Virus record (IMG/VR): IMGVR_UViG_3300011128_000298 | Coordinates: 1-31,067 of that record | Reading direction: 5' to 3' (one strand) | Source: a virus | DNA: 31,067 bases | Shown here: positions 7,932-30,442 of the stretch, piece by piece | Position numbering within the stretch: position 1 is the stretch's first letter | How the letters are laid out: the number at the start of each line of letters is the position of its first letter | Program-made: the position numbers and the translations under genes | The notes under the pieces: generated by a model | Told to the model about the DNA's origin: nothing | Databases searched by the model: none | What the model saw: only the letters and a program-made list of their open reading frames with translations

Positions 7932-8337
7932 AACTTAAGGGGCCTCACTTATAATAGCAACTTGACTAGGGTATTATGATACCTTGGTTTTAAGCGGGGG
8001 GGATTAGCACCGGGGATTTAGCGGGGGGATGCTGGTAAGCCGAGGGTTGAGGTAGCTCTTGAGTGGCCTTTGAGATACGTTAACCTCTCAGCAAAAACAT
8101 ATAGCACGTTATAGCAATAGATATAGGTGATCTAATGATTGTTAGTCATCTGGTCACTATTATGTAGGGCAAAGTAGCCTTGGTTTCTGGCTCTAGGCTG
8201 TGGGATTTAGTCGCTCATTAGTCGCATAGGGGGTGGGGGGTTAATATTTCCAGACCCCCACTTCGGAGATCGGCTCCTTCCCCATAGGTAATACTATACC
8301 TCATAAATACTTCAGTAGCGTGAGGGCCGCCGGGGGC
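7932..8337. other. 406-bp non-coding stretch, palindrome and G-runs
   Basis: No convincing gene is seen on either strand. It holds GGTAT-TATG-ATACC (7970-7983), runs of G (around 7997-8003 and 8024-8030), the TTAGTCGC repeat pair at 8207-8227 and, just after it, a G-rich hairpin in which TGGGGG (8234-8239) pairs with CCCCCA (8255-8260). The combination of an isolated integrase-type repeat and G-rich structure is unusual for the middle of a phage genome. Confidence 0.5.
8207..8227 (+). repeat. TTAGTCGC repeat pair, orphan copy
   Basis: Two TTAGTCGC units spaced 11 bp apart, the second followed by AT. The same arrangement and orientation occur at 30207-30227 and 30422-30442 around the att core. 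This copy is 22 kb from the integrase. Confidence 0.8.
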
Positions 8338-8709
8338 TTAATGCTGCTTGACGAAGCTGGTGTCGCCGTAGACGAAGGTAAATTTTTGGCCGTTAGTCAT
8401 GCGTCCGAAGCCTTGGCCTTTTTGCATAGTTCCTGTGAAGGAGAAGCTTCCTGCTCTTCCGTCTTCACAAGTAAAGGTGCCATCTGCTGAAGCCCCTTGT
8501 GTTTCTGTCCAGACGAGTGGGGCTTGGTATTGCCCTGTGCATTTGGAACCTGAGTCGAAGGTCATGCTTAGGGTGGATGGGCCACTTAGAACGCTGGTAG
8601 CTGTTCCTATGAAGGCTTCTCCTGTTTGGGTAACTTTGCCTGAGACTGGTTGTGTGTTTGCACAAGCTGTCAGGCTGAGGGCCGCTATAGATAGTATTAA
8701 GTGTTTCAT
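8338..8709 (-). CDS. Small secreted lipoprotein (moron candidate)
   Basis: The 123-residue protein has a lipoprotein signal MKHLILSIAALSLTACANTQ with lipobox LTAC (Cys16). It is followed by a beta-rich domain with regularly spaced glycines (GEAFIGTATS...GSGKCTGQY-like segments) and a Cys pair (KCTGQ and TFTCEDG). It should be lipidated and face the periplasm or cell surface. It lies alone between the early and late blocks on the opposite strand, the usual place for lysogenic-conversion genes such as exclusion lipoproteins. A weak TTGACT-N17-TAGAAA promoter directly precedes it. Function unproven. Confidence 0.7.
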   Translation of the reverse strand: MKHLILSIAALSLTACANTQPVSGKVTQTGEAFIGTATSVLSGPSTLSMTFDSGSKCTGQYQAPLVWTETQGASADGTFTCEDGRAGSFSFTGTMQKGQGFGRMTNGQKFTFVYGDTSFVKQH

Positions 8710-8747
8710 ATTTTTTTCTACAATTTAGATGGGCCACAGTCAAGCTT

Positions 8748-8918
8748 TTAGAGGTCGTAGGCTGCTTTATCTGTTGTGTGGAGATAGTCGCATAGGACTT
8801 GAAGGCTGGCTTCTAGTCCTTCTACTGTTTTGTGTTCAGCTTCTAGGATTTGTTTTGTCATGTCGTGAGCGTAGGTGCAGCGTAGGACGAGTTTTGCGAG
8901 TTGTTCTTGATGGTCCAT
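8748..8918 (-). CDS. Small hypothetical protein, 56 aa
   Basis: ATG 8918 has AAGGGAG about nine bases upstream. The product starts MDHQEQLAKLVLRCTYAHDM and continues TKQILEAEHKTVEGLEASLQ. It is almost entirely helical, with heptad-like hydrophobics, and has two cysteines. It is the first gene after the promoter at 9239-9268 and its 310-nt leader, upstream of the lipoprotein gene. No family is recognised. Confidence 0.55.
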   Translation of the reverse strand: MDHQEQLAKLVLRCTYAHDMTKQILEAEHKTVEGLEASLQVLCDYLHTTDKAAYDL

Positions 8919-9232
8919 TTGGTAGTCTCCCTTTTGATATAGATGGCCAAAGTTTGGCCCTTTGGTAGCGGGAGCTTAGTGCACAGACAACAGAAAGGTT
9001 CTGGTTATGTGTCTACATATTTCCTGTAAACAGGTGTTGCATTTTGTAGAACTCCCGCCCTATAAGTGGGGTTAGGGATTGGAAGCGCTGTTGGAGGCAC
9101 TTCCTGTTTCTGTTGTCGAGCCACTAAACTCTGCCACCATACTCAGGCTAAAGTTTACTTTAGTCAACCCTGTTTCCTGTCTTACACAAAGGTAAATATT
9201 CCTACGCTTACCAAGTTTTTGTTGGTCTTGAT
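8919..9232 (-). other. Long structured 5' leader of the lipoprotein unit
   Basis: Between the promoter at 9239-9268 and ATG 8918 lies about 310 nt without a convincing gene. It contains a 10-bp inverted repeat GACAACAGAA (8986-8995) / TTCTGTTGTC (9108-9117). Inside that is a hairpin TCTACA (9012-9017) / TGTAGA (9045-9050) with an inner CCTG/CAGG stem (9023-9034). A palindrome CTAAAGTTTACTTTAG lies at 9148-9163. These nested elements suggest a folded regulatory leader or a small RNA. Confidence 0.45.
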
Positions 9233-9238
9233 TTGGGT

Positions 9239-9268
9239 ATATTAGTTCTTGTTTTGTTCTAGTGTCAA
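9239..9268 (-). promoter_or_regulatory. Strong leftward sigma70-type promoter
   Basis: On the minus strand TTGACA (9268-9263) and TAATAT (9244-9239) are separated by 18 bp. Both boxes are close to consensus. It would start transcription near 9232 toward the genes at 8918 and 8709. No copy of the 16-bp operator overlaps it, so it may be constitutive in a lysogen. Confidence 0.7.
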
Positions 9269-9454
9269 ACAAAATTTTTTAAAGGGGGTTAGCCCTTAAA
9301 ATTGCAACGCAGCTACCTATGTGTGTTTATTCTTTATCACTAGTGTGATTCGCAAGGCGATTCAAGTAGGGGTTGTAATTTTTTTTGGGGGGTGATGGGT
9401 TTATGGCTGAAAGCAAGGGCGGGCCAAATTTTTTTTGGTTGTCTATAGAATAGG

Positions 9455-9482
9455 TAACTTTAGCTAAGTAACTTTAGCTAAG
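9455..9482. repeat. Perfect tandem 14-bp repeat
   Basis: TAACTTTAGCTAAG occurs twice head to tail (9455-9468 and 9469-9482). Each unit contains ACTTTAG, which is also the arm of the palindrome at 9148-9163. It may be a second protein-binding motif or recent slippage. The stretch 9269-9473 otherwise holds no gene I can support; it has T-runs and G-runs. Confidence 0.7.
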
Positions 9483-9674
9483 CTGCTTTAGGCTTAGGCT
9501 TCTTAAGGCTAGAAGCTTAGGAGAATTTTCCCTGAACCTAGATTTAGAGAATAGGAAATAGCTTAATCCCCCCGCCAATATTACAGCAACAACAAACACT
9601 ACTAAATACCAGCGGGGGAATCTGAACCTGAGTTCTTCGAATGAGGTTTTCTTGCTTGTGTTATCGTAGCTCAA
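9474..9674 (-). CDS. Possible small single-span membrane protein
   Basis: The 66-residue frame starts at TTG 9674 without a visible ribosome-binding site. It has a strong hydrophobic span (WYLVVFVVAVILAGGLSYFLF) between basic flanks, which is unlikely by chance. The frame is open about 32 codons further upstream, but that part overlaps the structured element at 9656-9793 and has no standard start. Either a small membrane protein is read from an unusual start, or only the structured DNA matters here. Confidence 0.35.
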   Translation of the reverse strand: MSYDNTSKKTSFEELRFRFPRWYLVVFVVAVILAGGLSYFLFSKSRFRENSPKLLALRSLSLKQLS

Positions 9675-9832
9675 ACGGCTGAGGGCAGTACCCGAGGTTC
9701 CCTGTCCAATCGCTACGCAATCCCGGCCCGAAGGCCATACGGTTACACCAATCTAAATTTGTTGGTGAGCATGACTGGTAAGCTATAACACAAACCTACA
9801 AGTCATAGATGCATTTCAGCATCTTTTCTTTC
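9656..9832 (+). ncRNA. Candidate structured RNA followed by terminator
   Basis: A closing stem TTGTGTTAT (9656-9664) / ATAACACAA (9785-9793) encloses several nested stems. They are CGTAGC (9665-9670) / GCTACG (9712-9717), GGGCAG (9683-9688) / CTGTCC (9702-9707), GGCC-CGAA-GGCC (9725-9736; cUUCGg on the other strand) and CACCAA (9746-9751) / TTGGTG (9762-9767). A hairpin with a T-rich tail follows at 9807-9832. The part TAGCTCAAACGGCTGAGG resembles a tRNA D-arm, but no complete tRNA can be folded. The RNA strand, promoter and function are unknown. Confidence 0.4.
9807..9832 (+). terminator. Intrinsic terminator-like hairpin
   Basis: AGATGC (9807-9812) pairs with GCATCT (9819-9824) around ATTTCA, followed by TTTCTTTC. 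It would end any rightward transcript from the structured element before the terminase operon. The stem is short, so efficiency may be modest. Downstream, GAGTGCG (9850-9856) / CGCACTC (9898-9904) with an inner GTTGG/CCAAC hairpin is also present. Confidence 0.55.
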
Positions 9833-9927
9833 TCCAGCTATTTGTCGTCGAGTGCGTGTTGGTTTGTACCCAACTCCCTATAATTTATCTGGCGGTTCGC
9901 ACTCTGCCAAGGACATATTTCAAAAAC

Positions 9928-9956
9928 ACTATACGTTACTTATGAGTAACACGCAA
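9928..9956 (-). promoter_or_regulatory. Operator 6 in spacer of a leftward promoter
   Basis: GTTACTTATGAGTAAC lies at 9935-9950. On the minus strand TTGCGT (9956-9951) and TATAGT (9933-9928) are exactly 17 bp apart, so the operator fills the spacer just as at 2931-2959. Transcription would run leftward into the structured element and the 9674 frame. The same site is upstream of the terminase operon on the other strand. Confidence 0.6.
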
Positions 9957-9978
9957 CATGAAAATATTCCTATTTAAT

Positions 9979-9994
9979 GTTACTCATAGGTAGC
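9979..9994. promoter_or_regulatory. Operator 7 (GTTACTCATAGGTAGC)
   Basis: This is a degenerate copy of the palindrome, 17 bp before the terminase start at 10012 and 44 bp from operator 6. A pair of sites here suggests the late packaging and virion operon is under the same repressor. No clear rightward promoter boxes are seen. Confidence 0.55.
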
Positions 9995-10011
9995 AGCTTG
10001 GGAGGAGCTAA

Positions 10012-10554
10012 ATGGCCGAGGAAGATAACACTAAAAGCAAACAGGTTGTAAGGAAGGTTGGGAAGAACCCGCTTCCTAGTTCTGATGTGTATGCACAAGT
10101 AGAACAGTTCTACCCCCTTAATAAGAAGGAGATAGAGTTCCTGCATGAATACAACAAGGACTTAGATATTGGCCGAGCTTTAAAGGCGGCTGGGCTTACT
10201 AAGAAGGCTTTGGATACTCATAGCAAGCAGGGCCAAGCAATACTTCTTGAGATGCGAGAGATTAACGAGATGTGGCACAGGGCCATTCGTATGAATTCTC
10301 AAGCTGCTGCTACCAAGCATTTGGAGCTGATGGAGAAGTTTGAGGCTGATTACGACACTGCTGACATAAAGAACCAGAATAAGGGGAGTTTATCTGGGAC
10401 GCTTGCGAGAATGTCAGATGCCAATCTCAAGGCAACTGGTCACTACGCAAAAGAGGGTGGCCCTAGCGGAACTAAGGTTGAAATTAATATTGATCTGTCT
10501 GGCAAGAAAGACGAGCCCGAAATCAAAATAACAGGTGAGGACACTAGTGAGTAA
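10012..10554 (+). CDS. terS: Terminase small subunit
   Basis: The 180-residue protein begins at ATG 10012 with GGGAGGAG upstream. After a charged N-terminus it has FLHEYNKDLDIGRALKAAGL followed by KKALDTHSKQGQAILLEM, the helix-turn-helix pattern of small terminases. A helical oligomerisation region and an acidic/lysine tail follow. It should recognise phage DNA and hand it to the large subunit. It overlaps terL by a few bases. Terminase genes come first here, whereas in T7 they come last (genes 18 and 19). Confidence 0.8.
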   Translation: MAEEDNTKSKQVVRKVGKNPLPSSDVYAQVEQFYPLNKKEIEFLHEYNKDLDIGRALKAAGLTKKALDTHSKQGQAILLEMREINEMWHRAIRMNSQAAATKHLELMEKFEADYDTADIKNQNKGSLSGTLARMSDANLKATGHYAKEGGPSGTKVEINIDLSGKKDEPEIKITGEDTSE

Positions 10555-12034
10555 CACAGTTCTCGCGTATAAGGCCTCGCCTACTGGAGTTTTGTTTCAT
10601 CAAAGTGATGCTTTTGTCAAAGGTATTATGGGGCCGTTTGGGTCTGGTAAGTCGGTAGCGGTTTGCTGGGATATCTTTATGCGGATGCGGAAGCAAGCTC
10701 CGGGTAATGATGGCATACGCCGCACCCGCTGGATTATCGCCAGAAACACGTTTAACGAGCTTGAAACCACGACTATGGAGACGTGGAAGGATTGGTTCCC
10801 TGAGCACATCTTTGGGGCTATATCGAGAAAACCGCCATACAGGCAGGTGCTGAAGTATGATGATGTCGAGGCTGAAATTATATTTTTGGCCCTTGATAAG
10901 CCGGAAGACCAGAAGAAGCTGTTATCTTTTGAGGTGACTGGTGTCTGGTTTAACGAGGCTAGGCAAATCCCCCAAGAGTTGATTAATGCGGCCTTGGGAA
11001 GAGTAGGGCGGTATCCTTCTAAGAAGAGTAAGCCAGAGCATGTCCCTAATGATGAATGGCCTACGTGGTCAGGTATCTTGCTTGATACCAACCCTCCTGA
11101 TGATGAGCACTGGTATTACAAAGCAGCCGAGGAGAACGCGTGGGCTATTAATGAGTTTGGCGAGCCAGTGGACCCCGATAGTATCCCGTCTAAGCGCCAG
11201 TGGCATTTCTTTAGACAGCCTAGCGGACTTAAGCCAGAAGCTGAGAATATAGAGAACCTTCCGGGAGGCCAAGAGTATTACAAGCGAATGCTTGGGGGGA
11301 GCAATACAAAGGAATGGGTGGCAGTCCACGTCCACGGCGAATACGGCTTTATTAGGCACGGCAACCCTGTTTTCGAGGGATATTGGAACCCAGATTTGAT
11401 GGTTGCCAAACATGTGCTGCAAGAGGCCCCCAATAGGGAAATATATGTTGGGGTTGATAGCTCTGGCCGCCACCCGGCAGCTATATTTTGCCAAAGAACA
11501 CAGCTTGGGCAGTGGCAGATATTCCACGAACTTTGCTACACAGACCAGAGTATTGGGGCTGTAGATTTTTCTAAGGTGTTGGCTCAGGAATGCGCCAGTA
11601 GATACCCTAATAATACCCTTCATTTCTGGGGCGATCCTGCTGGAGACTGGAAAACTCAAACTGATGAGCGGACTTACTTTGATATCTTGAGAGCAAACGG
11701 GATTGATATAAAAGCTTCCCCCGGCCTCAGAATACCAGAGCGGCTAGAGACGGTTAAGTCTGTTATGGGACGGATGACCCAAGGGCAGCCCAGTATTGTT
11801 GTAAGCCCTGCCTGCAAAATACTCATAAGAGGGTTTGATGGTGGCTACACATTCAAAGAATATAACTCCGCCCAGCCCGAACAAAGCAAACCAATCAAGA
11901 ATAGATACTCTGATGTGCAAGACGCTTTGCAGTATGTGCTGTGTGGCGGCGGTGAGATGAAGAAAATGTACGGTAGAAACAAAAAATATCATGCCCCAAT
12001 CAAAGCTGACACATCTTTCTCAATCTACAACTAG
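10547..12034 (+). CDS. terL: Terminase large subunit (ATPase/nuclease)
   Basis: The start is taken at GTG 10547 (MSNTVLAYKASPTGVL), which has AGGTGAGG upstream; GTG 10535 is the alternative. The 495-residue protein has Walker A GPFGSGKS (residues 29-36), an acidic Walker B-like VTGVWFNEARQIP, and an RNase H-type nuclease domain with VGVDSSGRHPAAIF, FWGDPAGDW and NRYSDVQDALQYVL supplying the acidic metal ligands. It powers DNA packaging and cuts the DNA. Its 3' end overlaps the next gene. Confidence 0.92.
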   Translation: MSNTVLAYKASPTGVLFHQSDAFVKGIMGPFGSGKSVAVCWDIFMRMRKQAPGNDGIRRTRWIIARNTFNELETTTMETWKDWFPEHIFGAISRKPPYRQVLKYDDVEAEIIFLALDKPEDQKKLLSFEVTGVWFNEARQIPQELINAALGRVGRYPSKKSKPEHVPNDEWPTWSGILLDTNPPDDEHWYYKAAEENAWAINEFGEPVDPDSIPSKRQWHFFRQPSGLKPEAENIENLPGGQEYYKRMLGGSNTKEWVAVHVHGEYGFIRHGNPVFEGYWNPDLMVAKHVLQEAPNREIYVGVDSSGRHPAAIFCQRTQLGQWQIFHELCYTDQSIGAVDFSKVLAQECASRYPNNTLHFWGDPAGDWKTQTDERTYFDILRANGIDIKASPGLRIPERLETVKSVMGRMTQGQPSIVVSPACKILIRGFDGGYTFKEYNSAQPEQSKPIKNRYSDVQDALQYVLCGGGEMKKMYGRNKKYHAPIKADTSFSIYN

Positions 12035-12431
12035 GCTCTGGTATGTAATCTTTAGCCCCTTGCAAGAAGGCTGCCCTTGGTGGATGAGGTTGGGTGCAGG
12101 GGGGCAAAGAGATACAATCGGGCACGTAAGTTTGCTCACGCCAGTTACTGAGAGACACGCCATTAGGATAGACCCTTTAAGAAATTATTGTGAAAGCGAC
12201 CTTTGGGTTGCGGATACAACGGTAGCCTCTATGGCTGCCCAGCTTGCACAAGACTACAAGGTGCTGGCTTTGATGCATGAAAAACAGCCTTGCTGGAACC
12301 TCAGCCTCTTGGCTCCTACCTGTGTGAGTGTCTGCAAATACCATATAGGGCTCCCTTCAAGGGCTTTAACTCCATACCAGCTCTACCAAGACCTTATTCA
12401 AAACTATGATGCGACAGAGCTTGGTGCGTAA
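11991..12431 (+). CDS. Hypothetical protein, possible permuted papain-like fold
   Basis: ATG 11991 lies inside the terL 3' end and has no clear ribosome-binding site; the true start may be later or non-ATG. The core reads WYVIFSPLQEGCPWWMRLGA, DTIGHVSLLTPV, IRIDPL and, near the C-terminus, CVSVCKYHIGLPSRALTPYQ. The order His (GHVSLL) then Cys (TCVSVCK), ending in LTPYQLYQDL, resembles a phage family located beside terminase or portal genes. It could be a circularly permuted NlpC/LRAT-type cysteine enzyme; that assignment is tentative. Confidence 0.55.
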   Translation: MPQSKLTHLSQSTTRLWYVIFSPLQEGCPWWMRLGAGGQRDTIGHVSLLTPVTERHAIRIDPLRNYCESDLWVADTTVASMAAQLAQDYKVLALMHEKQPCWNLSLLAPTCVSVCKYHIGLPSRALTPYQLYQDLIQNYDATELGA

Positions 12432-12479
12432 GGCTCACAGCAAATCTCTCCTAATCTGAGGGTTAGAGGAGTGTTTCTT

Positions 12480-12707
12480 ATGGGCGGCTTAGTAAGCAAA
12501 CCAAAAAAACCAGACACATCAAGGCAGCAAGCTTTAATAGCGCAGCAACAGGCTGATCTCGCTAAGCAGCGACAAGCTGCTGAGGCTGAGGCTGAATCTT
12601 TGCGTAACGCAAGGATATCACAGCAAAAACGCCTAAGAGGCCGCTTATCAGGCCGACAATCCCTCATAGCAACAAGTGAACTCGGAGTGACGGAGAAACT
12701 AGGATAA
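12480..12707 (+). CDS. Small conserved virion-region protein
   Basis: The start at 12480 (MGGLVSKPKKPDTSRQQALI) has GAGGAG nine bases upstream. The 75-residue product is a charged helix rich in Q/A/E, followed by RLRGRLSGRQSLIATSELGV. Short proteins with a Q/A-rich helix and an RGRxSLIxT.xxGV tail are common between terminase and portal in podoviruses. Their function is unknown, perhaps head assembly. The stop overlaps the next ATG. Confidence 0.65.
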   Translation: MGGLVSKPKKPDTSRQQALIAQQQADLAKQRQAAEAEAESLRNARISQQKRLRGRLSGRQSLIATSELGVTEKLG

Positions 12708-13003
12708 TGCCTACACTTTATATTGAATATTACAACAACACAGTTGAGGGCGGCAAGTCGCAGGTTGCCGATAAGCTTTTGGGAAATGACAAGCTTGCTA
12801 TCGGGGGCAGCTCAGTCAGAACGTCTTCCGATATTCCTGATGGCACAGATTTTATTGTTCTGAAGACTGACACAGCTTGCCAGTACGCTCTAGGGACTTC
12901 TTCTGTAACAGCCACGGCTACTAGTCAATTCCTTCCAGCAAACGCTATCTGGCCACAAGGCACAGCGGGTAATGCTCGTATAGCGGTAATTCAGCAGCAA
13001 TAA
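12707..13003 (+). CDS. Small beta-rich virion-region protein
   Basis: This 98-residue protein starts at ATG 12707, overlapping the previous TAA. It is beta-rich: MPTLYIEYYNNTVEGGKSQV, GGSSVRTSSDIPDGTDFIVL, then TATSQFLPANAIWPQG. It sits between small head-region genes and the portal, so it may be a minor head or decoration component. No named family is recognised. It ends with TAATG shared with the portal start. Confidence 0.6.
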   Translation: MPTLYIEYYNNTVEGGKSQVADKLLGNDKLAIGGSSVRTSSDIPDGTDFIVLKTDTACQYALGTSSVTATATSQFLPANAIWPQGTAGNARIAVIQQQ

Positions 13004-14556
13004 TGGACGCACAGGCAGAAAAAGTATTAAAGCGCTTCAATAAAGCAAAGAAGCGTAAAGCTAATTGGGCAACTCTTTACGAAGATGCTCAAGAATATGT
13101 CTGCCCCCACAGAGAGTCCTTTAACGAAGGTGACAACCCCGGCCAAGAAAAAACAGGGCAAGGGAAAGTCTTTGACTCTACGGCTATTGATGCTGTCCAG
13201 AAGTTCGCTTCTAACCTACAAAGCTCTCTTGTCCCGCCTATGCGTAAGTGGATTGAACTTAAAGCCGGACCGCAGTTTAAAGACAATAAAGAAGATATGA
13301 ACAAGGTACTTTCTGATGCCTCTGATGTTCTGTTTTCTCATCTGCAAAACTCAAACTTCGACACACAAATAGCTGAAAGCTTCCAAGACCTAGCAATAGG
13401 TACTGGCGCTTTGCTCGTTATGAAAGGCACTACCACATCACCTTTCCGATTTATAAATGTTCCTCTCTCGCAACTTTATGTTCTCGAGGGGCCAGATGGC
13501 AGACCAGACACAGCTTATAGAGAGTGGAAGCTGGCTGCCAGAAATATCGAGCAGCAATGGCCTGATGCTAAGTTGCCTAAAGAAATCAAAGAGCAAGTTG
13601 CAGAAGACCCGGAGAGGCTTATAGAGCTTATCGAAGAGATTTACCCTGATGAGGTTTCGCTGCAAACGGTATCCGGGAAGAAGAAGCAGGGGGGCTTTCG
13701 CTACTCTGTAGTCGCTAAAAAAGGCAAGCACCAAATCGTATCACGCGAACAGAAGTCCAGTCCTTGGATTATCTTCCGTTGGTCTACTCTTCCCGGAGAA
13801 ATATATGGGAGAGGCCCAGCGCTTATAGCCTTGCCTGATGTTAAGACGCTGAACAAAACTAAAGAGCTGCTTTTGCAGTCCGCTAGTATTTCCATCTTTG
13901 GAATGTGGCTTGGGGACAGTGACAGCGTAGTTAATCTTGAGAATATTAAGTTCTCTCCGGGGACCATTATTCCTCAAGATCGTCTCGTGAATGGAAGCCC
14001 AGCTTTGGTTCCTTTGAACTCGTCTAGTGACTTAAACCTAGCCCAGATTGTTATTCAGGACTTGCAGAACTCAGTTCGCAATATGCTCTTTGCCGACCCC
14101 TTAGGCCCGATTGATTTGCCTGTTAAGTCAGCAACTGAAGTGTCACTAAGGCAGCAAGAGCTTGCTAAGCGTATTGGCTCAGCCTTTGGCCGCTTGCAGT
14201 TCGAGCTTATCCAGCCTCTGGTAAACAGATGTTTAGATATCTTGGAGGAGCTTGGGCTGGTTGATCTTGCTGAGCTGAGAGTAGACGGGACTAACCTTGC
14301 TATTGAGCATGTAAGCCCTCTAGCTCAGGCGCAGGCCGAGGAAGAAACCTTAGCTATTATGCGCTACCTAGAAATGCTTGCAGGTCTTTATGGCCCAGAG
14401 GCTCTCCAGATAGCAGCCCCTCTTGATAAGACAATTACTGAAGTCGGCCCTCGTTTGAATGTCCCGACTAGCATGATTCCGTCATCTACCGAGATCAAGG
14501 ACGCTCAAGCTAAAGCGCAACTCGCTCAGTTAGCCCAAGCTGGTGGACAGGTTTAA
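13003..14556 (+). CDS. Head-tail connector/portal protein, T7 gp8-like
   Basis: At 517 residues it is close to T7 gp8 (536). N-terminal KRFNKAKKRKANWATLYEDA then QEYVCPHRE, TGQGKVFDSTAIDAVQKFAS and SSLVPPMRKWIEL are typical of podovirus connectors. Further on come ALLVMKG, SPWIIFRWSTLPGEIYGRGP and FADPLGPIDLPVKSATEVSL. It forms the dodecameric ring through which DNA is packaged and to which the tail attaches. The start is fixed by overlap with the previous stop. Confidence 0.9.
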   Translation: MDAQAEKVLKRFNKAKKRKANWATLYEDAQEYVCPHRESFNEGDNPGQEKTGQGKVFDSTAIDAVQKFASNLQSSLVPPMRKWIELKAGPQFKDNKEDMNKVLSDASDVLFSHLQNSNFDTQIAESFQDLAIGTGALLVMKGTTTSPFRFINVPLSQLYVLEGPDGRPDTAYREWKLAARNIEQQWPDAKLPKEIKEQVAEDPERLIELIEEIYPDEVSLQTVSGKKKQGGFRYSVVAKKGKHQIVSREQKSSPWIIFRWSTLPGEIYGRGPALIALPDVKTLNKTKELLLQSASISIFGMWLGDSDSVVNLENIKFSPGTIIPQDRLVNGSPALVPLNSSSDLNLAQIVIQDLQNSVRNMLFADPLGPIDLPVKSATEVSLRQQELAKRIGSAFGRLQFELIQPLVNRCLDILEELGLVDLAELRVDGTNLAIEHVSPLAQAQAEEETLAIMRYLEMLAGLYGPEALQIAAPLDKTITEVGPRLNVPTSMIPSSTEIKDAQAKAQLAQLAQAGGQV

Positions 14557-14777
14557 TGACCGAAGAAGAGGCGATCTTCATTAATAGGTTTCTCGGTACG
14601 ACTGAAGGGCAGCGCTTTTTAGGGATACTGGAAAAGAAGTTTCGTGAAGAGACTGATCTGCCTGATGGCAAATACCGGGTTTATTACGAAAGAGGCCAGC
14701 GGAATGTCATCAACACAATCTTACGTGCAATAACCAGAGGAGGAAACGTAAATGACACAGGAAGCAACACTACTTAA
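14556..14777 (+). CDS. Small hypothetical protein between portal and scaffold
   Basis: The 73-residue product starts at ATG 14556 (TAATG junction) with MTEEEAIFINRFLGTTEGQR, then FLGILEKKFREETDLPDGKY. Two helices and a short C-terminal strand are likely. It overlaps the scaffold start by 26 bases. Position suggests a head-assembly accessory. No family is recognised. Confidence 0.6.
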   Translation: MTEEEAIFINRFLGTTEGQRFLGILEKKFREETDLPDGKYRVYYERGQRNVINTILRAITRGGNVNDTGSNTT

Positions 14778-15498
14778 TGAAGCCCCAGCCGCAGAAGCGG
14801 AAGATACAAACACTGAAGAAGCAGCCCCTGTTGAGGGAGCTGAAGCTGGAGAGGGCAAAGATGATGGGTATAAATATGCTAACAAGTTTGGAAGTGTAGA
14901 TGAGTTGGAAAAAGGGTACAAAGAGCTTACGCAAAAGCTTCGAGAAAAGCTGCCAGAAGCCCCCGAAGAATACAAACTTGACCTCGGAGAAATCGAAGGT
15001 CTGGCTGATTTTAAAGAGAAGCTTGACGGTTTAGACATCTCGGAAGACCCTATGTTCAAGGCCGCTCTTCCTGCGTTTAAGAAGCATAATCTTTCTCAGG
15101 ACGCTGTAAACGACATCATAGCTGATGTTTTGAAATCAGATATCGAGGGCGCTGTCGATAAAGAAGCTGAGCTTGCAAAGCTTGGTGATGATGGTGATAA
15201 GATATTGTCTGAGGTTGCTCGTTTTAATGCAAAGCTTCCAGAAGAAGAGCAAGCATTCATCAACTCAATAGCGACAACTGCTGAAGGTGTTAAGTTTGCT
15301 CACAAGCTTATTGGCCTGATGGGAGAGAAGCCAGTACCGACTGAAGAGGCTAATGCCCCAGAGCTTGATCCTAACGAGATATTAAACGAAGCAGCTAAGC
15401 TTAAAAGAGAAACACCTAACTTTGACCTGAACACAAAAGCTCAAGCTAGGTACGAAGCTCTTATGACCGAAGCCTCTAAGATACAGCTTAAAAAGTAA
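14752..15498 (+). CDS. Capsid scaffolding protein
   Basis: This 248-residue, very acidic protein (start AGAGGAGG upstream of ATG 14752) has a low-complexity Glu/Ala N-terminus. Then come KYANKFGSVDELEKGYKELT, LREKLPEAPEEYKLDL, and a long charged helical region ending in KAQARYEALMTEASKIQLKK. Acidic N-terminus, coiled middle, basic tail and position between connector and major capsid genes match T7 gp9-type scaffolds. It should guide procapsid assembly and leave the mature head. An intrinsic terminator follows. Confidence 0.85.
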   Translation: MTQEATLLNEAPAAEAEDTNTEEAAPVEGAEAGEGKDDGYKYANKFGSVDELEKGYKELTQKLREKLPEAPEEYKLDLGEIEGLADFKEKLDGLDISEDPMFKAALPAFKKHNLSQDAVNDIIADVLKSDIEGAVDKEAELAKLGDDGDKILSEVARFNAKLPEEEQAFINSIATTAEGVKFAHKLIGLMGEKPVPTEEANAPELDPNEILNEAAKLKRETPNFDLNTKAQARYEALMTEASKIQLKK

Positions 15499-15522
15499 AC
15501 GGTCTCTCTCGCTCGACCAAGG

Positions 15523-15553
15523 AAAAGGCCTCCTTAACTGGGGGTCTTTTTTT
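15523..15553 (+). terminator. Intrinsic terminator after scaffold gene
   Basis: AAAGGCCTCC pairs with GGGGGTCTTT across TTAACT, with two G-T wobbles, and the stem runs into TTTTTTT. It separates the packaging/scaffold transcript from the capsid gene. Confidence 0.75.
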
Positions 15554-15559
15554 GCCTAA

Positions 15560-16618: not shown

Positions 16619-16631
16619 GGAGAACTAAGAT

Positions 16632-16916: not shown

Positions 16917-16926
16917 TCTTTTCGAC

Positions 16927-16950: not shown

Positions 16951-16974
16951 GTCTCTACTTAATGGAGAGCATTA

Positions 16975-24800: not shown

Positions 24801-25207
24801 TCCCGTCTAAGCCTAGCCGTAGAATTTCTGTCGGGCCAGTTTCAGGCATACAGCTTAATGCGAACCAATATGAAAGACTGTTAGAGATCGTAGGCACAGA
24901 GCCTTTGGCTGGCGGCCAAACGTTCAAAGAATTCGCTGAGTCTTTTGCTATGTCTCCGGCATTCACAGAAATACCAGCAGTCCAAACTATTGACGGTAGA
25001 GGCAAGTCTCAAGCGGAGCTTGTGAAGTCAGCTTACTCAGACGTTTTAAAGCAGGCGACACAAATCCTTATATCTGAAAACCCCGATCTACAGGAAAGAG
25101 CAATTAGCAAAGGACTGCTTGAGAGAACCACAACAGGGATGTCACCCTTGTCTCACGCGATAGGCAAGAGATTGAATGAAGTGCGCTCTGAGCAGGGCAT
25201 CCAATAG
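21854..25207 (+). CDS. Large internal virion protein (T7 gp16-like)
   Basis: At 1117 residues this is the largest gene, placed as gp16 in T7 (1318). It contains TDLAFFDSSEKRLADLAEEF and GAGLGYATDGIVKSVRFLRE, a central SILSSPVTLYSDTISNVTF segment like other giant phage internal proteins, and hydrophobic patches near residues 760-830. Unlike T7 gp16, no N-terminal lytic transglycosylase motif is visible. It should be ejected into the cell and help pull in the DNA. The C-terminus is helical. Confidence 0.8.
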   Translation: MEDEFKLEPNDRIEAQARQAKDTELDGLPEFNPDLFDPPSADLTPEDTDAIKKAEELQDDKQLSIFLDIPLQAVGGMRDAANAFKDLPIDIGVASAQLFSGEEGDQNIEASGEALKEATDLPDVPESDRTALKLQRGLTQFVAPFAAISKLNQTTKLNKTAQAATAMFNGAITDLAFFDSSEKRLADLAEEFGFENPLAADDDDSAIEARLKTTIEGAGLGYATDGIVKSVRFLREVKRGKTFASDAAERATVRRQDIVKAKTAVEGLADGRTTKVDVGDFRPDKEVIDITTQRRLAEAVGTTVEEIQNGEAFKGLALGKLRNKLNSYTLAEESAFEAFQDEAAEHAFRASQGDKGAREDFVSGLFDVLEVHGAVQDATQDIARAQGFRGNVGAIQDINTIRDLFARSKPDEIDDLMQAVGQAKTTDELRSFLKQIRAGKQVTAESTLREVTERWFMNSILSSPVTLYSDTISNVTFTAYNKLVEKPVAAAIGGLRSLRGGNVTDKVRLRESAVFFQNMMDDAIDGVRLIGRGYNKGGIKGVKQELGEALEATRVENFSRFGKRSRKAFLTDERLETIPAHLQGPAQFISNIANFPTNFMQSKDDVVKGMLYRSAVRERSYRHALNEGLEPGTDAFASRIKELQISPVDNVVENMDSFSKAGAAQFDAAVREFGGDEAAKRLQVQTGSIDEARKLTFTDQPHKISEGVNMIADNLPGGRFIVPFVTTIDNLTRRGFERSPLAGLSPQVRELIASGTAEGDEALARILTGTTFSMAAYGLATQGYITGDGPKDKNSRDAALQAGFRPRSFLINGSYMDFSRQIGPLALMFQIPANIAEIAKHRDGDLDGDLEKDISQYILLGGSAFLNTTLSQSWARGISDLFEAVNAQDEKGAKRMVENLAASLAVPNAATFVANQLNPILQEADSLWERIQIKSGMDVRPKRDVFGEPITRDQYASVFLPANKSDLTEVPEWKVRLYNAGAFPSKPSRRISVGPVSGIQLNANQYERLLEIVGTEPLAGGQTFKEFAESFAMSPAFTEIPAVQTIDGRGKSQAELVKSAYSDVLKQATQILISENPDLQERAISKGLLERTTTGMSPLSHAIGKRLNEVRSEQGIQ

Positions 25208-25237
25208 GTAAGTTATAAAGCAATAGAGGTAATATAG

Positions 25238-26467
25238 ATGGCTACAGTACCAATTAGTGACACACAGACCCGGAATGACTACACAGCTACGGCTAGTCAA
25301 ACAACCTTCCCTTACACGTTTTGGGTGAAGGACGAAGATCATTTGGATGTGTATGTTAATTCTGTTCTGAAAACAATAACCTCTGATTACACAGTGTCTG
25401 CTGTGCAGAGTGTGACTGGTGCAAACGTCGTTTTCAATAGTGGTCTGTCAGCTTCTGACGCTGTAGCTATCGTTTTGAATCCTGATGTTGAGCGCCAAAC
25501 AGAGTTTCAGACCTCTGGGAGCTTAACCGCTTCTGCAATCAATTTAGAGCTGACATATCTGGTAAGCCTTATGCAGTGGATTAAGACACAGTTTAGCAGG
25601 AAGTTCGGTTTATCTGATTCTGCTACTGGTGTTAGTGACCTTACTCTTACTCCTGCTGCCAGCACTGTTTTAGGCTGGAACTCTGCGGGGACTGGTGTGC
25701 AGAACTATAGCTTCGCAAGCGTGTCTTCTTCTATCGATACGAGTTTTACCAGCTTGAGTGACAACGACTTTCTCCAGTATAATTCGAGCACGCAGCTATG
25801 GGAGAACACAGCCGCACCTGCTGCTTCTGTTGCAGACAACAGTATCACTTTAGCAAAGATGGCTCACGGCACTGATGGGAACTTGATTACTTATGACGCT
25901 GCTGGAGCGCCAGCTTATGTTTCTACTGGTACTTCAGGGCAGATACTAACCTCTAATGGTGCAGGAGCAGCCCCTACTTTCCAAACCCCGGCATCTGTCA
26001 CGCCTCAAGGTGTTGTCCTGCAATACGAAACAACTGTAAGCACAACAACTGTAAGTACAACTAGCGGCACATTTGCTGACACAACAATCTCTGCAACGCT
26101 AGGAAACGATCTCGCCAGCTCTTCTAATAAGGTAAAGATAACTGTAAGCGGTGTTGGCGGCTTTACAGACCACAGCGCAGTAATGGGGATTACTCTATTC
26201 AGAGATTCAACAGAGCTGACCCCTGCGACCACAGAGGGTATGACGGCAGTCTCTACAGGCGCTGCTGCTGGCTCCTCTTCGGTTATTGACGGGATGGCTA
26301 TGCCTTGGTCTTTCACTTATATAGACACCCCCGGCAGCACAACCCCTGCCGAGTATAGTATTTATATCAATCGTCAGCTTGGCTCTGCTACAGCTTGGCT
26401 TGGTCGCTCAGGTGACAACGCTAGACAGCTCCCGACAATTATAACTGTAGAAGAGTTGAGCGCATAG
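25238..26467 (+). CDS. Tail fibre with T7 gp17-like N-terminus
   Basis: The 409-residue protein starts with the virion-attachment domain: TQTRNDYTATASQTTFPYTF, LDVYVNSVLKT and NLELTYLVSLMQWIKTQFSR (residues about 10-125). A shaft-like middle includes LTSNGAGAAPTFQTP, then a TTVSTTTVSTT repeat. The last 140 residues are beta-rich, with FRDSTELTP and YSIYINRQ. It binds the host surface receptor. No chaperone or peptidase tail domain is seen. GAGG precedes ATG 25238. Confidence 0.85.
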   Translation: MATVPISDTQTRNDYTATASQTTFPYTFWVKDEDHLDVYVNSVLKTITSDYTVSAVQSVTGANVVFNSGLSASDAVAIVLNPDVERQTEFQTSGSLTASAINLELTYLVSLMQWIKTQFSRKFGLSDSATGVSDLTLTPAASTVLGWNSAGTGVQNYSFASVSSSIDTSFTSLSDNDFLQYNSSTQLWENTAAPAASVADNSITLAKMAHGTDGNLITYDAAGAPAYVSTGTSGQILTSNGAGAAPTFQTPASVTPQGVVLQYETTVSTTTVSTTSGTFADTTISATLGNDLASSSNKVKITVSGVGGFTDHSAVMGITLFRDSTELTPATTEGMTAVSTGAAAGSSSVIDGMAMPWSFTYIDTPGSTTPAEYSIYINRQLGSATAWLGRSGDNARQLPTIITVEELSA

Positions 26468-26477
26468 GCGGGGGATT

Positions 26478-26771
26478 ATGACAGTGGATTGGTTAACATT
26501 TTGGTCTGTGTTGACGGTATTTATCTCGGCTGTTGGTGTTGTTTCGGCAATCGCAAGGATAATTATTATTAGGCGCGCGGAGGGGGAGTTGGCCAAAAGG
26601 CTGAAGGCGGTTTTCGCTACTGATATAACTATATACGGCGTGACGATAGCATTCGGTTTAGCAACATTTATGGCTATAGAGGTTGATTATCTTCTCTACC
26701 CGTCCCGGGCGCTGTTTCTTGTTTGTAATATTTATTATACGTGGCGGTTAGTAGCGCCGCTAAGGATGTAG
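26478..26771 (+). CDS. Three-span membrane protein A (tandem paralogue)
   Basis: This 97-residue protein has three hydrophobic segments (about 8-30, 48-66, 70-90). Between the first and second is a basic RRAEGELAKRLKAVFATD motif. The next gene has the same layout with RRSNAEISKRMRRVFFTD, so the two are duplicated genes. The position after the fibre suggests a holin or other lysis role, but this is not a recognised holin family. GGGGGA precedes ATG 26478. Confidence 0.65.
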   Translation: MTVDWLTFWSVLTVFISAVGVVSAIARIIIIRRAEGELAKRLKAVFATDITIYGVTIAFGLATFMAIEVDYLLYPSRALFLVCNIYYTWRLVAPLRM

Positions 26772-26773
26772 GA

Positions 26774-27073
26774 ATGTTAGAGGTTCTCGCTGGGTTATTA
26801 ACTATAGGTATAAGCGCGTGCGGCGCGGGTTTCGCATTTAGGCACTGGCTTTTCTATCGCCGCAGTAACGCTGAAATATCCAAAAGAATGCGCCGAGTGT
26901 TTTTCACAGATGGTCTAATATACACCATCACATTATTTTTTGGAGTTTGGGCTTATTACCGCTGGTCATTCGACATAGCGATAATCGCACACTGGGTAAG
27001 AATACCTATTCTGATTGCGAATATATGGGCTTCTTACAGGCTTTATAGTTACTACAAAATGTTTAAGGGGTAG
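26774..27073 (+). CDS. Three-span membrane protein B (tandem paralogue)
   Basis: The start is taken at ATG 26774 (MLEVLAGLLTIGISACGAGF), three bases after the previous stop and with AAGGA upstream. The 99-residue protein aligns with its neighbour: FYRRSNAEISKRMRRVFFTD matches IIRRAEGELAKRLKAVFATD, and both end in IWASYRLY or IYYTWRLV after the last span. The paralogues may form a hetero-oligomer, for instance holin and antiholin (inference). Confidence 0.65.
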   Translation: MLEVLAGLLTIGISACGAGFAFRHWLFYRRSNAEISKRMRRVFFTDGLIYTITLFFGVWAYYRWSFDIAIIAHWVRIPILIANIWASYRLYSYYKMFKG

Positions 27074-27076
27074 GGG

Positions 27077-27283
27077 ATGTCACCTGAGATTATTCAGCTA
27101 ATAGCAGACGCAGGTATAGCAGGGCTTAGCCTTGGGGCTATGGGGTATTTATTTTTGCAAATGATGAAAGCACACAGGAGTGAACGAGATGAATTTAGGG
27201 AAGATATTAAAGGGGATAGAGCTAGGTCAGACGAAGTTTTGTCTAATCTTACTGACGTTATCCGCGACATTAATCGGGACTAG
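27077..27283 (+). CDS. Small anchored coiled-coil protein (i-spanin-like)
   Basis: The 68-residue protein has an N-terminal hydrophobic segment (IADAGIAGLSLGAMGYLFLQ), followed by a charged helix HRSERDEFREDIKGDRARSD. ATG 27077 follows AAGGGGTAGGGG. A second gene starts inside it in another frame and encodes a secreted product. This Rz/Rz1-like nested arrangement suggests an inner-membrane spanin subunit, though it is shorter than usual. Confidence 0.55.
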   Translation: MSPEIIQLIADAGIAGLSLGAMGYLFLQMMKAHRSERDEFREDIKGDRARSDEVLSNLTDVIRDINRD

Positions 27284-27443
27284 TTGCTCTGGTGGCCCTA
27301 GCTATAAATCAAGCTCCGCAAAGCAGGTGATGTACTGCAAGCCTAGAGTTGCTGTCACAGATGATCTTAGATATTCCAACCCCCACAGAGTAGCCTTTAC
27401 AGGCGAGTGCGGTGTAAATTACGAGATCCCTATCTGGAAGTAG
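27189..27443 (+). CDS. Nested exported protein (o-spanin-like)
   Basis: The start is taken at ATG 27189, which has GGAG eight bases upstream, inside the previous gene in the +1 frame. The 84-residue product has a basic N-region, a hydrophobic stretch FCLILLTLSATLIGTSC, and further cysteines (MYCKPR, GECGVNY). The lipobox GTSC is imperfect, so it may be lipidated or cleaved by signal peptidase I. Nested position and export signal point to an outer spanin partner. Confidence 0.55.
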   Translation: MNLGKILKGIELGQTKFCLILLTLSATLIGTSCSGGPSYKSSSAKQVMYCKPRVAVTDDLRYSNPHRVAFTGECGVNYEIPIWK

Positions 27444-27484
27444 GGGCGTTAGAACTCTGCCCAACCACACATATTATCTCCGTT

Positions 27485-27901
27485 ATGGTTAGCTCCCACT
27501 CTCACCAGCAGATCGGTCAAATGGCTGAGTTGCTTGTGATGTACAGACTTTCGCGCTGGGGGCATAAATTGGCACAAGCAGGGCCGGGTATTCCGTATGA
27601 CTTACTTGTCGACACCGGGGAGAGGTTATTGCGAGTTCAGGTTAAGGGAACACTTTCACCTGTACGCCGAACAACAAGCCAGCTTTTGTATGAGCCCTTT
27701 CTCGTGGCGAAGGGGGCTTCTTCTAAAACTAACTATAGGGTTGATGATTATGACGTTCTTGCTCTCGTTTCTCTTACCGTTGAAAGAATTCTTTTTAAGC
27801 CTTGGCAAACCAAAGTCAGACATAGAATTAAACAATCAGAATTTACCGAAGAAGCTGAACGGCTCAGTTGGGAACAAACTATCAGGGAAGTGGGAGAGTG
27901 A
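27485..27901 (+). CDS. PD-(D/E)XK endonuclease-like protein in lysis region
   Basis: The start is taken at ATG 27485 (MVSSHSHQQIGQMAELLVMY). The 138-residue product shows the family order Glu15 (AELLV), Asp39 (PYDLLVDTG) and RVQVKGT (Gln52, Lys54), as in small phage and intron-type PD-(D/E)XK proteins. A helical C-terminal half with YDVLALVSLTVERILF follows. It may cut competing or host DNA. The last 150 bp overlap the endolysin frame. No ribosome-binding site is obvious, so its expression is uncertain. Confidence 0.65.
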   Translation: MVSSHSHQQIGQMAELLVMYRLSRWGHKLAQAGPGIPYDLLVDTGERLLRVQVKGTLSPVRRTTSQLLYEPFLVAKGASSKTNYRVDDYDVLALVSLTVERILFKPWQTKVRHRIKQSEFTEEAERLSWEQTIREVGE

Positions 27902-28406
27902 CTCCCTGTTTGTAGAGGCTGTCGCAGAGCTGCTTAAGCACGAGGGCGGCTATGTGGATCATCCAAACGACAGAGGAGGAGCCACTAACTGGGGTATAAG
28001 TTTCCGCTTTTACAAGAGCTTAAAGCCGGATGCCACTAAGAGAGATATCAGAGAACTAACGTTAGACGCTGCTAAGCAGATTTACTACGAACACTGGTGG
28101 GTACGCTACGGATACCGGGCTCTCCCCTTTAGTATTGGGAAGAGGGTGTTTTCTTTCGCTGTCAATATGCCATCGCAATCTGCACATAAATTATTACAAA
28201 GGGCAATTAGGGCAGCTACAGGGGAACAACTTTTAGAAGATGGTGTGCTTGGAGAAAAGACCATCGCTGCGGCTAAGGCGGCAGACACAGGCAAACTACT
28301 AGGGGCTCTGCGTTCTGAAGCTGCTGGTTACTACAGGTCACTGGCGGCCAAGAACCCAAGCCAGAAAGTATTTCTAAAAGGATGGCTTAATCGTGCCTAC
28401 GCCTAA
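27750..28406 (+). CDS. Endolysin, glycoside hydrolase 108-type
   Basis: The catalytic part (from about residue 54) reads FVEAVAELLKHEGGYVDHPN, then DRGGATNWGIS, with Glu65 as the expected acid in the HEGGY motif, and ends in a helical peptidoglycan-binding region (LLEDGVLGEKTIAAAKA). The start is taken at ATG 27750, nine bases after AGGG. This gives an N-terminus MTFLLSFLLPLKEFFLSLGK that could be a signal or signal-arrest anchor. That extension lies wholly within the nuclease gene in another frame. It degrades the cell wall during lysis. Confidence 0.85.
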   Translation: MTFLLSFLLPLKEFFLSLGKPKSDIELNNQNLPKKLNGSVGNKLSGKWESDSLFVEAVAELLKHEGGYVDHPNDRGGATNWGISFRFYKSLKPDATKRDIRELTLDAAKQIYYEHWWVRYGYRALPFSIGKRVFSFAVNMPSQSAHKLLQRAIRAATGEQLLEDGVLGEKTIAAAKAADTGKLLGALRSEAAGYYRSLAAKNPSQKVFLKGWLNRAYA

Positions 28407-28497
28407 GATACCTGAAGTATTTACTACCCCCAGAGAGCCAACCATCTGGGAGAAGTTTTCTGAGTGGTTGGAAACATTAGGAGAAGAAAATGCTTAA
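28393..28497 (+). CDS. Small hypothetical protein, 34 aa
   Basis: A GTG-initiated frame with AAAGGA upstream overlaps the endolysin stop and the next ATG. It encodes MPTPKIPEVFTTPREPTIWE followed by KFSEWLETLGEENA. A proline-rich N-terminus and one amphipathic helix are visible. It fills the only gap in the lysis operon, and the overlaps at both ends support translation. Function unknown. Confidence 0.4.
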   Translation: MPTPKIPEVFTTPREPTIWEKFSEWLETLGEENA

Positions 28498-28678
28498 AGG
28501 CTGGAAAACATTTATAGTTGCGTTATTGGTGTCCATATTTGGCGCATTAGAAAGCTTTAATTTCACAGAGTTTTTGAATGCAGATACTGCTGGATATGTA
28601 ACTACTGGTATCGGTATTGTAATCTTTATTCTGCGTGCATTAACCAGTACACCGCTCTTTCAAGACGAAGCTGAGTAA
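28490..28678 (+). CDS. Holin-like two-span membrane protein
   Basis: The 62-residue protein starts at ATG 28490 with AGGAG upstream. MLKGWKTFIVALLVSIFGAL provides the first span and AGYVTTGIGIVIFILRALTS the second, followed by TPLFQ. Small proteins starting W-K-T with two spans and ending RALT.TP are common next to endolysins. A holin or accessory lysis function is likely but not proven. Confidence 0.6.
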   Translation: MLKGWKTFIVALLVSIFGALESFNFTEFLNADTAGYVTTGIGIVIFILRALTSTPLFQDEAE

Positions 28679-28911
28679 TGCCAGTAGAACTACTAGGACT
28701 CGCTGCTGCTATCCTTGGCTTTGTCGGGGTAGTGGCGCGAGTATTTTTTTACTTCAAGGGGGTAGGGGATGAAAAGCAAAGAGTTGAATCAGAGCTTAAC
28801 AAAGATGCGATTGAAGAGGTTGCGCGTAAGAATAAGCGCCGCCCTTTTCTTCTTAAGCCTAGTGTTCTTAGGCGGCTGCGCTCAATCTACAATCCAAAAC
28901 CCAAAGATTGA
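28678..28911 (+). CDS. Inner-membrane spanin-like protein
   Basis: The 77-residue protein starts at TAATG junction 28678. It has one N-terminal span (LLGLAAAILGFVGVVARVFF), followed by a charged helix with DEKQRVESELNKDAIEEVAR and a basic tail. The lipoprotein gene at 28769 begins inside it in another frame. N-terminal anchor, periplasmic coil and nested lipoprotein gene match two-component spanins. It is short for an i-spanin. Confidence 0.6.
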   Translation: MPVELLGLAAAILGFVGVVARVFFYFKGVGDEKQRVESELNKDAIEEVARKNKRRPFLLKPSVLRRLRSIYNPKPKD

Positions 28912-29023
28912 TTGCTTGCTCTATGAGCCGCCATTCAGCAACCCGACCAACCAAGCAACATATTTCTGTAGGTGTGAGCCTGAGCTTGATGCCGACTTAG
29001 CTAAAGAGCTATGTGTTTCCTAA
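28769..29023 (+). CDS. Outer-membrane spanin-like lipoprotein
   Basis: The lipobox is textbook: ISAALFFLSLVFLGGC followed by AQS. Translation may start at 28769 (AAGGGGG upstream) or at ATG 28805 (MRLKRLRVRIS), which gives a more normal signal length. The mature part is short, with five further cysteines (CLLY, FCRC, LCVS counted loosely), resembling Rz1-type outer spanins. It would link with the 28678 product to fuse inner and outer membranes in the last lysis step. Its end overlaps the convergent integrase gene by 15 bp. Confidence 0.65.
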   Translation: MKSKELNQSLTKMRLKRLRVRISAALFFLSLVFLGGCAQSTIQNPKIDCLLYEPPFSNPTNQATYFCRCEPELDADLAKELCVS

Positions 29024-30148
29024 GCGTCTCATCAGCACGTCACTAACTTGGTTGCCCTTGTCTGCTTTCACATCATCTTTCAAGAATGCGTAAGACCTCT
29101 CCGTAGTTTGGCTGGAAGCGTGACCTAATAGCTTACCTATATCTCCTAAGCCTATTCCTGCTGAGCGGGCATATGTGGCGTAAGAACGTCTAAGGTCGTG
29201 TATTCTCAAATCAGAACCAACACCACAGTCCTCCTTAAAGGCTTTCCACATCTTGCTTGAAACTTCATAGGGTTGCACTAATGCAGACTGCTGGAAGAGA
29301 AACTCTCTGGAACTAGATATGTTACGCCTGACAATATCAATTGCTGGTAGCGGCAGATGTATATCTTTCGCCCCAGTCTTACTGTCTGGTAGTGAAAGTT
29401 TCCCTCTCTCCAAATCATACCATTCATTCTTACTGCCTGTTATTTCAGTTTTTCTTGCTCCGGTGAGGATGAGAAGGGCAAGTATATCCGCGAGTTGTCG
29501 TTCCCTATAACTGGCTCGTCTGCTCCAGCGTCGTATTCCATCTCCGACGGCTCTAAGTTCTCGCTCATCAGCATACCTTCTTCTTGCAAGTTCGGGGTTT
29601 CGTTCGACTCCTCTAGCAGGATTAAATCCGCCCCGAACGTAATCGCAGGAAGCGGCATACGTGTAGAGTCTTCCAAGCAGCGCCATAGCTCTGTTAGCTG
29701 CGTAAGGCGGAGCTGCTCTATGCAGCTTAACCAACTCTGAAGTTCGTATATCTGTAATACGCCTTCCTTCAAGTGTTCTAAGGTATCCACTGTAGAGGCC
29801 TTCGTAGGATTGAATGGTTTTGGGTTTTCGTTTGCGGGCGCAAAAGTCGATAAATTCTTCCCAAAGTTCTCCAAGAGTTGGCGCGTTATCTTCTTCTCTT
29901 CTTGCGGGGTCATTTCCTTTGGCTACCTCCAATAGTTTTTCTTTGGCTATATCTCTTGCTTGCGACAAACTTATTGTAGGGTAGTAACCTATCTTCAGCC
30001 TACGCTCTTTCCTTTCGCTTTTTGTCCTGTAGTACACCCGCCACGTTTGGGTATTAACACCTATGTATATTTCAAGCCCTTTGACGATAGAGTCCTTCAG
30101 GACTGTATGCGGTTTGGCAGCGTTAATTGTGTGCTTGGTAATCGGCAT
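29009..30148 (-). CDS. int: Tyrosine-recombinase integrase
   Basis: The 379-residue protein begins at ATG 30148 with AAGGAGG upstream. The N-terminus (GLEIYIGVNTQTWRVYYRTK, then KIGYYPTISLSQARDIAKEK) is the arm-type DNA-binding fold of P4/HP1-like integrases. A core-binding domain follows (TIQSYEGLYSGYL). The catalytic residues are Arg232 (LTGARKTEI), His317 and Arg320 (HDLRRSYAT), His343 (LGHAS) and Tyr353 (ERSYAF). All needed residues are present. It should integrate the phage into a tRNA-Arg gene via the site at 30331-30378. An operator at 30163-30178 sits just upstream. Confidence 0.95.
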   Translation of the reverse strand: MPITKHTINAAKPHTVLKDSIVKGLEIYIGVNTQTWRVYYRTKSERKERRLKIGYYPTISLSQARDIAKEKLLEVAKGNDPARREEDNAPTLGELWEEFIDFCARKRKPKTIQSYEGLYSGYLRTLEGRRITDIRTSELVKLHRAAPPYAANRAMALLGRLYTYAASCDYVRGGFNPARGVERNPELARRRYADERELRAVGDGIRRWSRRASYRERQLADILALLILTGARKTEITGSKNEWYDLERGKLSLPDSKTGAKDIHLPLPAIDIVRRNISSSREFLFQQSALVQPYEVSSKMWKAFKEDCGVGSDLRIHDLRRSYATYARSAGIGLGDIGKLLGHASSQTTERSYAFLKDDVKADKGNQVSDVLMRRLGNT

Positions 30149-30162
30149 CCTTTTCCTCCTTG

Positions 30163-30178
30163 GTTACTTATTAGTAAC
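30163..30178. promoter_or_regulatory. Operator 8 upstream of integrase
   Basis: GTTACTTATTAGTAAC is a perfect-armed variant, 14 bp upstream of the integrase ATG and touching its ribosome-binding site. It would allow the phage repressor to shut off the integrase. A clear promoter is not seen here. Confidence 0.7.
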
Positions 30179-30206
30179 ATCATAGAAAAAAAATACAAGA
30201 GAAAAT

Positions 30207-30227
30207 TTAGTCGCCTATTAGTCGCAT
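30207..30227 (+). repeat. TTAGTCGC repeat pair, left of att core
   Basis: Two TTAGTCGC units 11 bp apart, about 104 bp from the att core. The position between integrase gene and core, and a matching pair on the other side, fits integrase arm-type sites. Confidence 0.8.
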
Positions 30228-30306
30228 TTTTCCCCTCGGTTAAGCTATTGAACAGAAAGAAGGTTTTTTTGAAAGGCCAAAAGAGGAGCGCTGTATAGAT
30301 AAATAA

Positions 30307-30322
30307 GTTACTTATAGGTAAC
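30307..30322. promoter_or_regulatory. Operator 9 adjacent to att core
   Basis: GTTACTTATAGGTAAC lies 8 bp before the tRNA-derived att core. Binding here could affect the integration complex directly as well as transcription. Confidence 0.65.
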
Positions 30323-30330
30323 GTTTTAGA

Positions 30331-30378
30331 TGACTACGGATCAGGAGGTCAGGAGTTCGAATCTTCTCGGGCGCGCCA
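30331..30378 (+). other. att core: 3' half of tRNA-Arg(ACG)
   Basis: The sequence starts within the anticodon arm (TGACTACGGATCA, loop CUACGGA, anticodon ACG). It continues through the variable region, the T arm AGGAG-TTCGAAT-CTTCT and the 3' acceptor strand CGGGCGC, and ends GCCA. The bases before it do not match the 5' half of a tRNA, so this is not a functional gene. It is the identity block that restores a host tRNA-Arg on integration. Repeats on both sides argue for an intact attP. Confidence 0.85.
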
Positions 30379-30421
30379 TTCACCAAGGGTTACAGGGTTT
30401 GCCATATTTTTTGGTAGCTGC

Positions 30422-30442
30422 TTAGTCGCACCTTAGTCGCAT
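30422..30442 (+). repeat. TTAGTCGC repeat pair, right of att core
   Basis: Same pair and orientation as at 30207, starting 44 bp after the CCA. The second unit contains the stop codon of the minus-strand gene that ends at 30433. Confidence 0.8.

Follow-up and report, generated by a model that had tools for sequence, protein, structure and literature searches.

A third, core-less pair of putative integrase arm-type repeats outside the attachment site of a temperate marine phage

We have analysed a 31,067-base IMG/VR viral record (the window, by which we mean this whole stretch of DNA) in which a pair of direct repeats of the form TTAGTCGC-NNN-TTAGTCGCA is present in three copies, at 8207, 30207 and 30422, all on the + strand. 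The copies at 30207 and 30422 lie around a tRNA-derived core next to an integrase gene and form an intact, ordinary attP, while the copy at 8207 is core-less; it is both real and unusual. Judging from its sequence and setting, we think it about an even call that the 8207 copy is a genuine integrase-docking pair outside attP with a regulatory or titrating role. The features concerned are listed in Table 1.

Table 1. Features of the window, and elements from the integrase survey, that bear on the repeat pairs (window coordinates)
Feature	Position	Strand	Remarks
HTH_17 protein, 55 aa, candidate excisionase/RDF	545..712	-	HTH_17 match, E 2e-10
Leftward gene, no family or relative found	7569..7931	-	start 276 bp from orphan pair
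Orphan pair TTAGTCGCTCATTAGTCGCA	8207..8226	+	exact pair in intergenic gap 7932-8337
G-rich sequence, hairpin possible with next C run	8229..8265	+	directly 3' of orphan pair; z = -1.7, weak
Leftward short gene, lipoprotein-like N-terminus	8338..8709	-	end 112 bp from orphan pair; PHROG matches weak only
Tyrosine integrase, 379 aa	29009..30148	-	Arm-DNA-bind_3 PF13356 (E 9.5e-15) and Phage_integrase PF00589 (E 6.3e-11)
Predicted integrase-proximal arm pair (P' side)	30207..30226	+	exact pair, 59-78 bp 5' of int start codon
attP core TGACTACGGATCAGGAGGTCAGGAGTTCGAATCTTCTCGGGCGCGCCA	30331..30378	+	alphaproteobacterial tRNA-Arg(ACG) 3' half, one mismatch over 48 bp
Predicted core-distal arm pair (P side)	30422..30441	+	exact pair; second unit overlaps stop codon of the 30433-30984 gene
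Putative PDDEXK_14 endonuclease gene	30433..30984	-	adjoins attP
Co-oriented distant copies with duplicated core			elements G116, G014, G048, L217, L230 and L247

The phage is temperate and of marine type, and its closest relatives among isolates are marine podoviruses such as MEP301. The window encodes an exonuclease, a DnaB-like helicase, a terminase, a T7-type head-tail adaptor, tail and internal virion proteins, an endolysin and the integrase; an Rfam scan of the window gave no match and a search of it for tRNA genes found none. A second contig of 21,326 bases is identical to the window at 11956-31067 and extends 2,214 bp beyond its right end, showing that the window record is a fragment, probably part of a circular map. 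The separation of 22 kb between the third copy and attP that was put forward in an earlier, sequence-only reading is correct along the record; on a circular map the distance the other way is about 11 kb plus a gap of unknown size.

Exact matches to TTAGTCGC occur in the window only at 8207, 8218, 30207, 30218, 30422 and 30433, all on the + strand, and the start-to-start spacing in each of the three pairs is 11 bp, in full agreement with the earlier description of paired units one helical turn apart in the same orientation. Shuffled sequences contain a mean of 0.86 single matches and never attain six, and the exact pair has no match in 385 alphaproteobacterial genomes, which together argue that the pair is not a chance effect; the latter result also disposes of the concern, raised with the original observation, that the motif might prove common in the host. 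Allowing up to two mismatches adds a single match in the window, a register-shifted overlap at 30411, and the next-best pair elsewhere in the window has five mismatches over 18 positions. A search of the literature for this repeat turned up no record.

The near copies have the attributes expected of an attP: an adjoining integrase with both arm-binding and catalytic domains, a core derived from the end of a tRNA, and pairs on both sides of that core. The location of the int-side pair fits the position of direct repeats across the Arm-DNA-bind_3 family, and the same layout is seen in an independent phage (see below). The proposal that these two copies are integrase arm-type sites is thus well supported as a prediction from sequence. 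Each 20-bp pair would dock the N-terminal arm-binding domain of the integrase, presumably as two protomers arranged head to tail and one helical turn apart, and in the prophage state the 30207 and 30422 pairs would be placed at opposite ends. Because the int promoter has to lie at the 30207 pair, the integrase probably represses its own gene, by analogy with the IntS proteins of KplE1 and ICEMlSym.

A second repeated element in the window is a 16-bp palindrome, GTTACTTATAAGTAAC, with nine copies carrying zero to three mismatches (at 2937, 3245, 3302, 7451, 7486, 9935, 9979, 30163 and 30307). Copies are found in the early control region, in front of a leftward gene, in front of the terminase genes, and near attP, where one lies 15 bp upstream of int and another precedes the att core by 9 bp. 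The palindrome is probably the phage repressor operator, and its placement suggests that the repressor controls int too, and perhaps also access to attP.

The independent phage is represented by a different contig of 31,874 bases (L010/G003) whose Arm-DNA-bind_3 integrase is 23% identical to that of the window. It has TTAGTCTC-N3-TTAGTCTC (TTAGTCTCATTTTAGTCTC) at the int start, followed by a tRNA 3'-half core and then by TTAGTCGC-N3-TTAGTCGCA (TTAGTCGCTGGTTAGTCGCA). The orientation is identical to that in the window, the distances are similar and the repeats nearly alike. We searched this contig for a third pair and found none, and an HTH_17 search of the record, which may be a fragment, gave no match. 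Since the layout is present there without an HTH_17 match, the factor common to the two phages would be the integrase.

To place these pairs in context we surveyed alphaproteobacterial Arm-DNA-bind_3 integrases for an exact 8-mer pair with 10-12 bp spacing no more than 160 bp upstream of the integrase gene. Fourteen of 30 have such a pair compared to 6 of 424 control windows, mostly at 40-76 bp from the gene, and each has its own repeat sequence; in an extended set 22 of 48 regions have an upstream pair. Distant copies of an element's own pair were found in eight cases, 8-17 kb away. Six of them are co-oriented, and in each a duplicated core (17-51 bp) accompanies both copies, indicating that these distant copies mark where the integrated elements end. 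One of the remaining two is inverted with a C-rich unit, and the other (G072) has two mismatches and no core was found. A co-oriented distant copy is therefore normal for an integrated element, but not where both pairs still flank the core. No clear co-oriented, core-less copy is present among the 22 related elements, with G072 ambiguous, and as L010/G003 also has no third pair, 8207 stands as a single case. The survey provides a simple rule for locating the ends of integrated elements: a direct-repeat pair some 40-100 bp ahead of an Arm-DNA-bind_3 integrase gene, with a co-oriented copy by a duplicated core at the far end. The same rule makes genuine orphans, 8207 among them, easy to recognise.

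The 8207 copy lies in a gene-poor gap (7932-8337) between the early/replication and late/packaging modules. The longest ORF wholly within the gap is 29 aa and runs of G adjoin the pair, bearing out its earlier description as sitting in a non-coding, G-rich stretch. All 17 consensus positions of the orphan pair are intact, and its closest match is the int-proximal copy, with 21 of 23 positions alike between 8205-8227 and 30205-30227. No core copy was found within about 500 bp of 8207 and no tRNA T-arm was seen, comparison of its flanks with both attP arms revealed no similarity, and no promoter-like site was found in 7932-8337. Searches of viral contigs for homologues of the two flanking leftward genes found none, and no DNA similarity to phage records was detected for 7000-10600. 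We also sought relatives covering 8207 and found none; the window contig alone spans this position, as the overlapping contig begins only at 11956, and the contig of a TerL relative (L016, 58%) ends 1.7 kb upstream of its TerL, short of the position equivalent to 8207. A non-coding GGGGG-T-GGGGG element is present upstream of TerS both in the window, within the G-rich sequence, and at L016:592. It may serve in packaging or as a terminator, and we dropped the former idea because the support was too thin.

Related repeats were encountered in several other viral contigs. Unrelated phage contigs contain TTAGTCGCAA[G/T] in three to four repeats with an 11-bp period (L006:4480-4523, L007:3085-3117 and L009:866-895), away from any recognised att core. 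We considered these TTAGTCGC arrays as further orphan arm arrays and rejected them, because 11-bp arrays are, by our estimate, frequent enough in a very large collection for chance to be an adequate explanation. Candidates in L005, L011 and L128-L133 were also set aside, as the pair is inside or across ORFs. Three TTAGTCGCAAG units are located at L012:1370-1538, 88 bp from a tRNA 3'-half sequence and by an Arm-DNA-bind_4 integrase; the unit is the same, and it apparently acts there as an arm site for a different integrase subfamily. One viral contig (L033:8615-8725) has several tandem arrays of GGCGAACAA with an 11-bp period, which look like a further set of arm or iteron repeats.

What then is the 8207 copy? 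The sequence-only reading had offered a relic of a former att region as one answer, and this is weakened by our findings. A core beside the pair, present for six of the eight distant copies in related elements, is missing at 8207, and because the attP pairs still flank their core and 8207 has neither a core nor attP-like flanks, a plain att relic is argued against. The other suggestions made at that time, looping and use by a different process, are possible, as is docking. With its unit positions intact and its flanks dissimilar, the pair points either to selection on binding or to recombination with breakpoints close to it, and this combination would suit binding-site selection better than the decay of a copied att region, since a neutral relic would be expected to lose unit positions as well as flanks. 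In the reading that we prefer, 8207 is an arm-type pair outside attP that would be bound by the integrase. Since there is no core by the pair, the integrase could dock there but could not recombine. The pair most likely persists since integrase binding at this position is useful, perhaps in control of the leftward gene 7569-7931 or in holding part of the integrase pool. That the integrase acts at 8207 as a sequence-specific regulator or loop anchor, coupling the integration decision to remote gene expression, is a more specific idea that we put forward tentatively. If the integrase does bind 8207, this would be a phage integrase with a dedicated target outside its attachment site, something that is rarely looked for.

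The main alternative, which we find somewhat doubtful, is that 8207 is a recombination scar. The gap would once have housed an attachment region, from this phage itself or from a relative whose integrase had the same specificity, and deletion or module exchange would have removed core and int but spared one arm pair. A gene-poor gap between early and late modules is a plausible place for such an event, the close agreement of the orphan with the int-proximal copy is consistent with it, and in Arm-DNA-bind_3 elements a co-oriented arm copy at a distance is normally the sign of an att end. However, neither a core nor a tRNA fragment is found at the expected distances and the flanks are not similar, yet both units are perfect; a scar requires breakpoints near the pair on both sides, or the flanks of another phage plus loss of the core.

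Alternatively, a different phage protein might recognise the pairs, both at attP and at a control region elsewhere, as do RDFs with a second role in transcription; the HTH_17 protein is a candidate. Its gene belongs to a leftward operon of the early region and lies some 3 kb or more away from int on a circular map, and the product is the likely excisionase and a candidate RDF. The winged-helix RDF RdfS attaches to promoters at a distance as well as to attP, and for the related BldC the target is 22 bp long and contains 9-bp direct repeats (PMC11963761), a geometry nearly as here, so the pairs could be sites of the HTH_17 protein. This is nonetheless improbable, because the pairs are on both sides of the core with one at the family-wide position of integrase repeats, L010/G003 shares the layout without an HTH_17 match, and RdfS itself has no consensus motif (PMC11963761). 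Finally, a single contig covers 8207, and 11-bp tandem arrays of the same unit are present elsewhere in viral contigs at a frequency that we judge compatible with chance in a large collection, so that the orphan could be a chance resemblance or an assembly artefact. By our arithmetic the chance of a 17-position exact match in 31 kb is about 4 in a million, and with the pair absent from all 385 alphaproteobacterial genomes we regard this explanation as very unlikely.

Several known systems share parts of this arrangement. For Tn916, action of the integrase at oriT, a site other than the transposon ends, has been proposed (Rocco and Churchward 2006, as cited in PMC9371924), which gives an example of an integrase proposed to act on its own element at a distant non-att site; Tn916 differs in being a conjugative transposon, and PMC9371924 questions the role of the integrase at oriT. 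In ICEMlSym R7A the IntS attP is 283 bp with five arm motifs, and the integrase represses its own promoter (PMC11963761). There too a recombination protein acts at promoters outside attP, but it is the RDF and not the integrase that binds at a distance, and no motif common to its sites was identified (PMC11963761). At KplE1 attL the integrase promoter overlaps the arm-type sites and int is negatively autoregulated, and the window layout predicts the same for its integrase; the repeat sequence differs, and the available part of that report describes no remote arm site (PMC2951348). The attP sites of P4-type (Arm-DNA-bind_3) phages and islands that target tRNA genes resemble the window in their integrase domains, in a core from the tRNA 3' half, and in having the core flanked on either side by direct-repeat pairs, one of them just upstream of int. 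The window departs from them in having a third, core-less pair 22 kb away while two normal pairs flank the core.
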